Source of the DNA: Buchnera aphidicola (Mindarus abietinus)
Lineage (GTDB): Bacteria > Pseudomonadota > Gammaproteobacteria > Enterobacterales > Enterobacteriaceae
Reading direction: 5' to 3'
DNA: 64,000 nt
Assembly: GCF_964059085.1 (NCBI RefSeq)
Contig: NZ_OZ060398.1
Coordinates: 11,354-75,353 of the forward strand
Shown here: positions 15,266 to 22,054 of the stretch, one piece after another
How positions within the stretch are numbered: the first letter of the stretch is position 1
Layout: each line of letters starts with the position of its first letter
Made by a program: the position numbers and the translations under genes
The notes under the pieces: generated by a model
The model's input: only the letters and a program-made list of their open reading frames with translations
Database searches by the model: none
Told to the model about the DNA's origin: nothing

Positions 15266-17539
15266 ATGACAGTATTTAATCATATACTTGGTTTTCCAAG
15301 AATTGGATCAAAAAGAGAGTTAAAAAAAGCTCAGGAAGAGTATTGGTCTGGCAAGATAACAAAAAAAGAGTTGTTTTCTGTAGGTAAAAAATTGCGGAAA
15401 GAAAATTGGAAACAACAAAAAAAATATGGAATTGATTTTTTACCAGTAGGAGATTTTTCTTGGTATGATCAAGTACTAACAACAAGTATGTTTTTAGGAA
15501 ATATACCAATTCGACATAAAAATTCTGATTCTTCTGTAGATATAGATACGATGTTTCGTATTGCTAGAGGTTCAGCTCCAAAAGGAAAATCTGTTCCTGC
15601 TTCTGAGATGACAAAATGGTTTAATACTAACTATCATTATATAGTTCCTGAATTTTATAAAAATCAAGAATTTTCTTATTCTTGGAGTCAATTATTAGAA
15701 GAAGTTGATGAAGCTTTATCATTAGGCTATAAAATTAAACCGATTTTATTAGGACCTTTAACATATTTGTGGTTAGGAAAAATTAAAGGTGATTATTTTA
15801 ATCGAATAGATTTATTACATAAAATATTACCTATTTATAAACATGTTTTGACAGAGTTATCTAATAGAGGTATTTCTTGGGTTCAAATAGATGAACCAAT
15901 TTTAGGATTAGAACTTTCTAATAAATGGAAAGAAGGTTTTAAATTTGCTTACCGTTTTTTAGGGGATGATTATAAAAATTTATTGTTAACAACTTATTTT
16001 GAAGATATTAATCTTAATTTAGATTTAATAGTGCAGTTACCTGTTGCTGGATTACACATAGATTTACTATCTGGAAATTATGATTTATTAGCTTTAAACT
16101 CAAAATTACCTAAAGATTGGTTATTATCTTTAGGGATGGTTAATGGACGTAACATTTGGAAAACAGATTTAGTTTATTGGTTTAATAAACTTATGCCAAT
16201 ATTAAGTAAAAGAAAAAATATTTGGGTCGGATCTTCATGTTCATTATTACATTCTCCTATTGATTTAAATCTTGAAAAAAATTTAAATCAAGAAATAAAG
16301 AATTGGTTTTCTTTTGCTTTACAAAAATGTTTTGAATTATCTATGTTTTCTAAATCTTTAAATAATAAGGATATAACAGGTATTGAAGAATGGAGTAATT
16401 TATTACATACACGAAATGTTTCAGAATTTGTTCATAATAAAAATGTTCAAGATAGATTAGAAAAACTTAATTGTCAAAATTTAGATAGAAAACATCCTTA
16501 TTCAATACGTTTCTCTAAACAAAAAGAAGCATTGAAATTGCCAATTTTTCCTACTACTACTATAGGGTCTTTTCCTCAAACTGAGTCTATTAGAAAGGTA
16601 AGAAGAGATTTTAAAAGTGGTGTAGTTTCTATTGAAAATTATAATAAACATATTCAAGATAATATAAAAAAAGTAATTTCAGAACAAGAATTATTGGATA
16701 TTGATGTGTTAGTTCATGGAGAAGTTGAACGTAATGATATGGTGGAATATTTTGGAGAAAATTTAAACGGTTTTGTTTTTACTGATTATGGTTGGGTTCA
16801 AAGTTATGGATCTCGTTGTGTTAAACCTCCTGTAATTATAGGAGATATTTATCGAACAAAAGCTATTACTGTTAAATGGTCTAAATATGCTCAGTCTTTA
16901 ACTAACAAATTAGTTAAAGGAATGCTAACTGGTCCAATAACAATTTTATGTTGGTCTTTTCTTAGAGAAGATGTTTCAAAGGAAATAATAGCTAAACAGA
17001 TTTCATTATCGTTACAAGATGAAGTATCAGATTTAGAATCAGCAGGTATTAAAATTATTCAAATAGATGAACCAGCATTAAGAGAAGGTTTACCGTTAAG
17101 AAAAAAAGATTGGGAAAATTATCTTTCTTGGGCAGTGAATGCTTTTAAATTAACATGTGTTAATGTAAAGAGTACTACTCAAATACATACTCATATGTGT
17201 TATTGTGAATTTGAAGATATAATGAATGCTATTGTACGTTTAGATGCTGATGTTATCACGATTGAAACATCTCGTTCCGATATGCAATTGTTAGAATTTT
17301 TCAAAAACTTTAAATATCCTAATGGGATTGGTCCGGGAGTATATGATATTCACTCTCCTAATGTACCAAAAATTCAAGATATAGAGAAGTTATTAAAAAA
17401 AGCATTAACTTATATTTCAAAACAAAATTTATGGGTTAATCCTGATTGTGGTTTAAAAACAAGAACTTGGATTGAAACAAGAAAAGCTTTAAAGAATATG
17501 GTGATTGCTGCTAAAAATATGCGATTACATGCATCGTAA
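15266..17539 (+). CDS. metE: Cobalamin-independent methionine synthase
   Basis: MetE transfers a methyl group from methyl-tetrahydropteroyltriglutamate to homocysteine, the last step to methionine. It has 757 residues (E. coli 753). The zinc-site motifs are visible as [10 protein letters not shown] and [11 protein letters not shown], and the folate-side N-terminus starts [20 protein letters not shown]. metF, which makes the methyl donor, is at 38607. The regulator metR, divergent from metE in E. coli, is absent. The last roughly 83 bases lie within a long perfect inverted repeat. Confidence 0.97.
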
Positions 17540-17705
17540 TCCTGTATAGAAAAATGGTCAAAAAGAAGGCGCTTTTTTTGTAAAAAAGCGCCTTCTTTTT
17601 GACCATTTTTCTATACAGGATTACGATGCATGTAATCGCATATTTTTAGCAGCAATCACCATATTCTTTAAAGCTTTTCTTGTTTCAATCCAAGTTCTTG
17701 TTTTT
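17455..17705. repeat. Perfect inverted repeat: two 124-base arms around a 3-base loop
   Basis: Bases 17455-17578 are exactly complementary to 17582-17705, with TGT at 17579-17581 between them. I compared every base and found no mismatch. The left arm contains the last coding part of metE, its stop codon and its terminator; the right arm repeats all of it backwards, ending about 30 bases before the purH stop. Beyond the arms, ATTGT occurs on both sides at slightly different spacing, hinting at a once longer repeat. It could come from template switching at the terminator hairpin, or from a fold-back artefact in assembly. Confidence 0.93.
17565..17600. terminator. Bidirectional terminator between convergent metE and purH
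   Basis: GAAGGCGCTTTTTT (17565-17578) pairs with AAAAAAGCGCCTTC (17582-17595) and is followed by a T run to 17600; the mirror-image T run serves the other strand. It forms the core of the long inverted repeat. Confidence 0.8.
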
Positions 17706-17737
17706 TACAATGATAAAAAAATAATTATTTTTATTTT

Positions 17738-19309
17738 TTAATGTTTGAAATGACGAGAATTAGTAAAAATCATAGCTATTTTATATTTATTAGCTTCTTT
17801 TAAGACTTCTTCGTCCCTAATAGAACCGCCTGGTTGTATAATAGTTTTTATATTAAATTTATTTGCTTCTTTAACTGAATCTGAAAATGGTAAAAATGCA
17901 TCGGATGCCATAATTATATTTTTATAGTTTTTTTTATTTTGATTTAATAATTTCATATTAGCTATTTTAACAGAACATAAACGACTTGTTTGTCCTGCTC
18001 CTATTCCAATAGTAACTTGATTTTTTACATAAACGATTCCATTTGATTTAATAAATTTAACTATTTTCCAAGCAAAAATAGCGTCTTTTTTTTCTTTTTC
18101 ATTTGGAACTCTTTTCGTTGGAATTTTCCATTTATTCATATCAATTAATAACTGATCTTTTTCTTGAATTAAAAGCCCATTCGTTACAGACCTAAAATCT
18201 AAAGAATTTTTTTTATTTATAAAATTACCAACAGAAAGTAATCGGATATTTGGTTTTTTTTGAAAAATTTTTAATGATTTTTTAGTAATATCTGGAAAAA
18301 TAATAACTTCAACAAATTGTTTATTTAATATTTCTACAGCTGTAGAAGAATCCAAAATCTTATTAAAAGCAATAATTCCTCCAAATGCAGAAGATGGATC
18401 GCTTTCATAAGCAAGTATATAAGCTTGATGTAAACTTTTTCCACTAGCTACAGCACAAGGATTTCCATGTTTAATTATTACACAAGTAGGTTTAGTAAAT
18501 TCTTTTACACATTCTAAAGCTATATCAGCATCGTAGATATTATTAAATGATAATTCTTTTCCTTGAATTTTTTTGACATTTCCAATAGATCCAGAAGAAA
18601 TTTCTTTTTCTACATAAAAAGATCCCTTTTGATGTTGATTTTCTCCATAAGAAAGATTATTTTTTTTAGAAAATTGTAAATTTAATATTTCTGGAAAATT
18701 TTCTTTTTTTATTTTTAAGTTATTAACTTTTTTTTCAAAAAAATTAGATATTCCTACTTCATAAATAGCAGTATATTTAAAAGCTTTCATAGCTAATCGC
18801 ATTCTTTCATTTATAGATAATGTATTTTTTTCAAGATGCTCGTCGAATAATGAATAATCTTTATAATCAACAAGAATTGAAACACGTTCATAATTTTTAG
18901 CAGCAGCACGAACTATGGTTGGTCCTCCTATGTCTATATATTTTAAAACTTCTTGTATCTTTTCATTTTTTATCTTTTTTTTTTCATTAAAAGGATAAAA
19001 ATTAGCTATTACTAGATCAATAGGAATAATAGAGTATTTATTAATAATAGAATCATCTATTCCTTTTCTATATAAAATACCAGCATAAATTTGATAATGT
19101 AATGTTTTTAATCGACCATCCATAATTTCTGGAAAATTAATATAACGAGAAATATTTGTAACAGAAATTTTATTTTTTCTTAATAAATTTGCTGTTCCTT
19201 CAGTGGAAAATAGTTTAACGTTTTTTTGTATTAATTTTTTAGCAAACTCAACAATTCCTGATTTATCAAATACACTAATTAAAGCAGTTTTAATATTTTT
19301 TAATTTCAT
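17738..19309 (-). CDS. purH: Bifunctional AICAR formyltransferase / IMP cyclohydrolase
   Basis: PurH performs the last two steps to IMP. It has 523 residues (E. coli 529). The N-terminal cyclohydrolase domain begins LKNIKTALISVFDKSGIVEF, and the transformylase domain has the catalytic IKHGNPCAVASG motif and SDAFLPFSDSV. purD, its E. coli operon partner, is absent. In Buchnera purH is thought to be kept to recycle AICAR released by histidine synthesis. It is convergent with metE. Confidence 0.96.
   Translation of the reverse strand: MKLKNIKTALISVFDKSGIVEFAKKLIQKNVKLFSTEGTANLLRKNKISVTNISRYINFPEIMDGRLKTLHYQIYAGILYRKGIDDSIINKYSIIPIDLVIANFYPFNEKKKIKNEKIQEVLKYIDIGGPTIVRAAAKNYERVSILVDYKDYSLFDEHLEKNTLSINERMRLAMKAFKYTAIYEVGISNFFEKKVNNLKIKKENFPEILNLQFSKKNNLSYGENQHQKGSFYVEKEISSGSIGNVKKIQGKELSFNNIYDADIALECVKEFTKPTCVIIKHGNPCAVASGKSLHQAYILAYESDPSSAFGGIIAFNKILDSSTAVEILNKQFVEVIIFPDITKKSLKIFQKKPNIRLLSVGNFINKKNSLDFRSVTNGLLIQEKDQLLIDMNKWKIPTKRVPNEKEKKDAIFAWKIVKFIKSNGIVYVKNQVTIGIGAGQTSRLCSVKIANMKLLNQNKKNYKNIIMASDAFLPFSDSVKEANKFNIKTIIQPGGSIRDEEVLKEANKYKIAMIFTNSRHFKH

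Positions 19310-19693: not shown

Positions 19694-22054
<2,361 letters not shown>

Follow-up and report, generated by a model that had tools for sequence, protein, structure and literature searches.

How does a long, perfect palindrome that includes the end of a protein-coding gene come to lie in the chromosome of a reduced endosymbiont, and what keeps its two arms identical? The locus that raises these questions is the convergent metE-purH junction of Buchnera aphidicola (Mindarus abietinus), within the 64,000-nucleotide stretch of chromosome analysed here (the window). An inverted-repeat search defined two arms of 124 nt each (17455-17578 on the forward strand and 17582-17705 on the reverse), 100% complementary and separated by a 3-nt loop (17579-17581), confirming the long perfect repeat at the end of metE described in an earlier sequence-only reading of this DNA. 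The configuration, an inverted repeat with near-perfect arms and a short spacer, is that of a template-switch product. A chance origin was rejected, as the second-longest inverted pair in the whole window measures 77 nt at 73%. The left arm starts within metE, of which it holds the final 85 nt with the stop codon, and continues through a 13-nt spacer into the left half of a terminator; the right arm repeats all of this exactly as the reverse complement. Capture of coding sequence had been recognised correctly, its length put at about 83 bases where the count is 85 nt. The inverted copy of the gene end (17621-17705, reverse strand) mirrors 17455-17539, lies outside any called gene and matches metE residues 731-757 at 100% on the minus strand. 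The source gene, metE itself, occupies 15266-17539 (forward strand; NCBIfam NF003556, 1103 bits), and a spacer of 32 nt (17706-17737) separates the right arm from the stop codon of the convergent neighbour purH (17738-19309, reverse strand; NCBIfam NF002049, 643 bits). Separately, we noted a full-length thiC beside hupA (20210-22054, forward strand; NF006763, 975 bits); the Buchnera that are commonly described are not known to have this gene.

At the centre of the palindrome lies a bidirectional intrinsic terminator (core 17553-17607), with a GC-containing hairpin and a run of T on each strand (six pattern hits, three per strand) and a 27-nt half-stem that does not vary among the three genomes of the genus. 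Nine terminator-like sites occur between 15200 and 19400, where 0.7 were expected, and six of them fall at the palindrome, in agreement with the terminator hairpin that had been placed there in the earlier reading. This terminator accounts for the palindrome centre, but not for the 85-nt coding copy. Folded as RNA, the palindrome reaches -205.9 kcal/mol, whereas shuffled sequences average -45.2. Membership in an Rfam-listed RNA family was rejected, only eight tRNAs in the window passing gathering thresholds, as was a shared mobile sequence, since 17400-17750 has no match in the plasmid collection. Apart from the locus itself, this interval matches its own genome only over 26-60 nt at 76-92% identity; a hairpin scan of 264,000 of the 540,092 bases of the chromosome (score threshold 28, loop up to 30) returned one other hairpin, with a 30-nt arm.

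To place the palindrome in time, we compared the genome under study (G000) with two others of the same genus (G001 and G002; genus g1). The second contig of G002 matches a plasmid of the Mindarus japonicus Buchnera at 100% identity, and that of G001 likewise matches one from the M. keteleerifoliae Buchnera. The closest public relatives of the G000 leucine plasmid also come from these two symbionts (87.9% and 82%), which bears out the attribution to Buchnera in the earlier reading. Both sister genomes have a palindrome at the same metE-purH junction, one of 146 nt (loop of 1) and one of 129 nt (loop of 0), each 100% complementary. Despite these differing arm lengths, the outer boundary falls in the same homologous stretch of metE in all three genomes, and only the outermost few bases of the G000 copy have decayed. 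A single inverted duplication that arose lately in this strain, too young for its arms to have diverged, would explain their 100% identity, and the earlier description of the palindrome as recent had pointed that way; the same palindrome with the same boundary in both sister genomes, whose metE bodies are 12-16% diverged at the DNA level, speaks so strongly against this origin, unless every copy were an assembly artefact, that we give it almost no credence, and the recent date is not borne out.

Between species, the left arms differ by 13 (G000-G002), 16 (G000-G001) and 22 (G001-G002) substitutions, each mirrored in the right arm, and by 19 gapped positions in each pair that involves G001. Within each of the three genomes, the arms differ at no position. 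Zero differences within species against 13-22 between them is the pattern of arms corrected towards each other, presupposing correct assemblies; since the arms are identical within each species yet differ between species, homogenisation would be what keeps them so, as the alternative wording of the earlier reading ("actively homogenised") had it. Comparison of these sequences suggests, then, that the two arms of the metE palindrome show concerted evolution, being re-copied from one another. In two pairs the captured tail of metE and the body of the gene are similarly diverged (0.131 vs 0.121 and 0.154 vs 0.160), and in G001-G002 the tail is the more diverged of the two (0.256 vs 0.156).

The wider distribution of the palindrome was established at the metE 3' junction of 71 reduced genomes (0.4-1.4 Mb), drawn from a family sample of 392 together with the genera of G325, G223 and G278 and grouped by us into genus-level clades. 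Thirteen of the 71, in four clades, have a palindrome that extends into metE and has at least 50 pairs: g1 (three of three genomes), g45 (seven of 11), g120 (two of three) and g92 (one of four). In the remaining reduced genomes, the metE end has a hairpin no longer than 30 pairs or no hairpin was found, and in family members with larger genomes (n = 23) the arms at this site reach 13 nt at most. Three of the 11 g45 genomes and one g120 genome are without the long palindrome, and g60, the sister of g1 (SH-aLRT 97), has it in none of five. One further g45 genome, G179, was not scored positive, its metE junction having an N gap and a scrambled repeat; at the metE stop of this genome (L121) we observed a run of N within a scrambled inverted repeat by which metE is cut short, an arrangement that looks like a palindrome broken in assembly. 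Clade g45 is probably the Buchnera of gall aphids; the plasmid of G093 is, over the first 8,000 of its 8,788 bases, 100% identical to that of the Formosaphis micheliae Buchnera. The four palindrome clades are separate on a quick metE tree from which the last 35 residues were left out; because the deep branches of this tree are weakly supported, the palindrome may instead have a single ancient origin followed by many losses. Within g45, five of the seven palindromes have their left boundary at -43 to -51 from the metE stop. A scan of contigs for MetE yielded 31 distant relatives, none of them Buchnera. A requirement for convergent purH was rejected, the downstream neighbour being purH, yicC or trkH by clade (the latter two named by eye from translations). 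As a separate compositional observation, the three Mindarus genomes have a third-position GC of 0.22-0.37 over the final 27 codons of metE, compared with 0.12-0.14 for the body of the gene; we considered GC-biased conversion or repair, which this rise would fit, and the g45 palindromes show little of it.

Because the case for concerted arms presupposes correct assemblies, it must be asked whether the right arm is real at all, or whether a short-read assembler folded back at a terminator stem longer than its k-mer. The sister genomes are described as derived from 2x150 Illumina reads only, by one assembler with k-mers of 27-33 (PMC11193766); the N run and scrambled repeat of G179, exactly at this site, imply that assemblers struggle there, and the lack of a long palindrome in three of the 11 g45 genomes could be counted on the same side. 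An artefact of this kind would not readily yield one homologous outer boundary in three genomes whose arms measure 124, 129 and 146 nt. Nor would it produce the arms of G396, which are unequal at one base within the captured metE codons and so need two separate sequences; a single gap between the arms in each of G293 and G259 counts less, because these gaps lie nearer the terminator. The site recurs, moreover, in G325, apparently from another, earlier deposit, and in Blochmannia vafer, where long palindromes interrupted both the assembly and Sanger reads, Illumina data that were already available served to close them (PMC3017870). We therefore consider an assembly artefact unlikely.

A real palindrome might still be a selected RNA element, a hairpin whose pairs are kept by selection at the RNA level for its effect on the stability or regulation of the metE (and purH) mRNAs. 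Its recurrence at metE in four clades and the invariance of the 27-nt terminator core within the genus would accord with such a role, and the authors of the Blochmannia study argued that palindromes of this sort decay without selection (PMC3017870). Selection on pairing, however, should leave G-U pairs and mismatches, whereas the ungapped palindromes, in 12 genomes, consist of 1053 Watson-Crick pairs among 1054, with one G-U pair and no mismatch; since RNA-level selection would accept G-U, this composition indicates copying at the level of DNA. Messenger RNAs that end at the central terminator would, in addition, hold little of the opposite arm, leaving most of the stem unformed; the palindrome is missing from g60, from three g45 genomes and from one g120 genome; and the gene neighbouring metE varies between clades. 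Selection on an RNA hairpin accordingly seems to us an improbable explanation. As for the transcripts expected from the sequence, purH mRNA that ends at the terminator in the centre would already include the 3' end of metE in the sense orientation, and at least the final 124 nt would be common to the metE and purH mRNAs. The earlier proposal of purH-derived RNA with the metE 3' end does not need its premise of read-through, as a stop at the terminator suffices.

The explanation we prefer, and regard as probable, is a real chromosomal palindrome, seeded by the terminator hairpin and both made and kept by replication through fold-back template switching. In a first step, the leading nascent strand, having passed metE and the terminator, would fold back at the terminator hairpin, template itself for about 100 nt and then rejoin the true template; the end of metE would thereby be duplicated, in inverted orientation, between terminator and purH. 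With SbcCD and RecA undetected, the palindrome would then be neither cut nor lost. Renewed fold-back at the same hairpin could subsequently copy the mutations of one arm into the other, and both convergent mRNAs would end at the shared terminator with the same 3' sequence. Template switching at the terminator hairpin, which had been put forward from the sequence alone, is thereby supported as the likely origin. The mechanism has precedent in print: nascent strand templating at inverted repeats of E. coli makes imperfect palindromes more perfect (PMC7202029); reverse-complement copying by template switch creates stems and restores pairing (PMC8794818); and in yeast without RNase H2, fold-back template-switch events depend on high transcription and fork direction (PMC3820800). 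Strong transcription along the direction of the fork is a possible reason for the preference for metE. Template switching and another RecA-independent form of conversion would fit the perfect pairing equally well. The direction of copying, from a presumed leading-strand gene into the DNA behind its terminator, fits the mechanism within a small sample.

The genetic background of these genomes bears on persistence. The RecA model (TIGR02012) had no match in any of 25 reduced genomes and was positive in three of three large ones, placing the palindrome in a setting where the RecA model is silent in 25 of 25. SbcD (TIGR00619) was likewise matched in none of 18 reduced genomes and in all three large genomes; the 18 took in six of the 13 palindrome genomes (G000, G001, G002, G223, G278 and G293), the g45 bearers (n = 7) being left out. 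SbcC had no match in the G000 genome, the sole genome searched. In E. coli, expression of SbcCD is lethal to recombination-deficient cells with a 246-bp interrupted palindrome (111-bp arms), and even to recombination-proficient cells with a 460-bp perfect palindrome (PMC4245961). Reduced genomes free of the palindrome show the same absence of RecA and SbcD matches, and gene loss is for this reason at most permissive: it allows the palindrome and does not explain it. That such a structure should be unexpected in a reduced genome, as had been supposed, is doubtful given this lack of RecA and SbcD matches and the Blochmannia palindromes listed in 2010 (PMC3017870).

Whether metE is a special site was addressed by scanning stretches of 80-264 kb in 11 genomes, 10 of which have the metE palindrome, a biased choice, with 1376 open frames of at least 120 aa. 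Besides metE, one hairpin with arms of at least 30 nt takes in at least 20 nt of the 3' end of a protein gene, a gmk-like gene (named by eye) in G325. Because comparable capture of 3' ends is nearly absent elsewhere in the sampled stretches, the end of metE looks, on these sequences, like a preferred palindrome site in several Buchnera clades. The terminator of tRNA-Leu(gag) is a second recurring site, with a perfect palindrome (33, 54, 65 or 69 nt) in each of four g45 genomes sampled (L147, 16272-16344; L187, 6002-6116; L200, absolute position 394872; L210, absolute position 396487), and in three of the four it includes 3-11 nt of the 3' end of the tRNA. G223 has several further palindromes; at L160 (1063-1204) we observed a perfect one of 66 nt whose right arm includes the opening 17 nt of a gene resembling ligA (named by eye), a capture that concerns the 5' end, not the 3' end. 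In G278, a 50-nt perfect palindrome (L179, 3213-3314) immediately precedes a gene resembling hisG (named by eye), a position that a his leader or attenuator might occupy. Copying runs downstream in the presumed fork direction at metE (forward strand, about 30 kb), tRNA-Leu(gag) (reverse, about 396-406 kb) and the gmk-like gene (reverse, about 439 kb), the sign of GC skew changing near 300 kb in g45, but the skew being weak in the Mindarus genus. This polarity, read from few cases, is suggestive; it weighs little because the copying of gene ends into non-coding DNA is also the outcome that selection tolerates, and the cases are biased to that extent.

Long palindromes have been described in another reduced insect endosymbiont, Blochmannia, three genomes of which hold 20, 10 and 6 of them, 62-136 bp in length, nearly all at least partly intergenic, some impeding assembly and Sanger sequencing, and thought to need selection (PMC3017870). 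By the definition used there (at least 30 bp, a gap of at most 20 bp, at most 3 mismatches), the metE palindrome, partly intergenic and from a reduced endosymbiont, belongs to the same class. It differs in its arms of 124-146 nt in the Mindarus genus, of which 85-94 nt are coding, in its recurrence at one gene in four clades and in the concerted change of its arms; the available portion of the Blochmannia text suggests selection rather than copying and makes no mention of metE (PMC3017870). The quasipalindromes of E. coli are alike in the use of the nascent strand as template at an inverted repeat, in the more perfect repeat that results and in strand bias, but that work used a laboratory strain with an 18-bp quasipalindrome as its reporter, whereas the palindromes here measure 50-146 nt and their correction is deduced from comparison of species (PMC7202029). 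Template-switch RNA hairpins, as treated in the accessible part of that work, reach 59 bp at most in the largest pattern and are discussed for rRNA (PMC8794818), against a longer stem and the end of a protein gene here. In a survey of inverted repeats of at least 6 bp, Buchnera BCc had the highest frequency, with enrichment after coding sequences; the available text of that survey contains neither long palindromes nor a comparison of arms between species (PMC10434271). Homogenisation, coding capture and recurrence at metE are new here relative to the Blochmannia palindromes, and among the open-licence papers listed by literature searches we recognised none that reports a metE palindrome or arms of this kind evolving in concert.

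Genomes of clonal endosymbionts are usually treated as being without recombination and hence without gene conversion. If the arms do evolve in concert across species, RecA-independent copying would still edit endosymbiont DNA, coding sequence included; the growth and decay of palindromes would become measurable on the host tree, and the long palindromes of Blochmannia would have a mutational, not a selective, reason. We offer, tentatively and as something less than an even prospect, the fuller proposition of a self-correcting metE palindrome acquired convergently in Buchnera lacking RecA and SbcCD, in which a hairpin seeded by the terminator captures the end of this one gene time and again, and fold-back copying homogenises the arms and can write mutations of the junk arm into the C-terminus of MetE; the palindrome would then serve a key nutritional gene as a partner for gene conversion without recombination.
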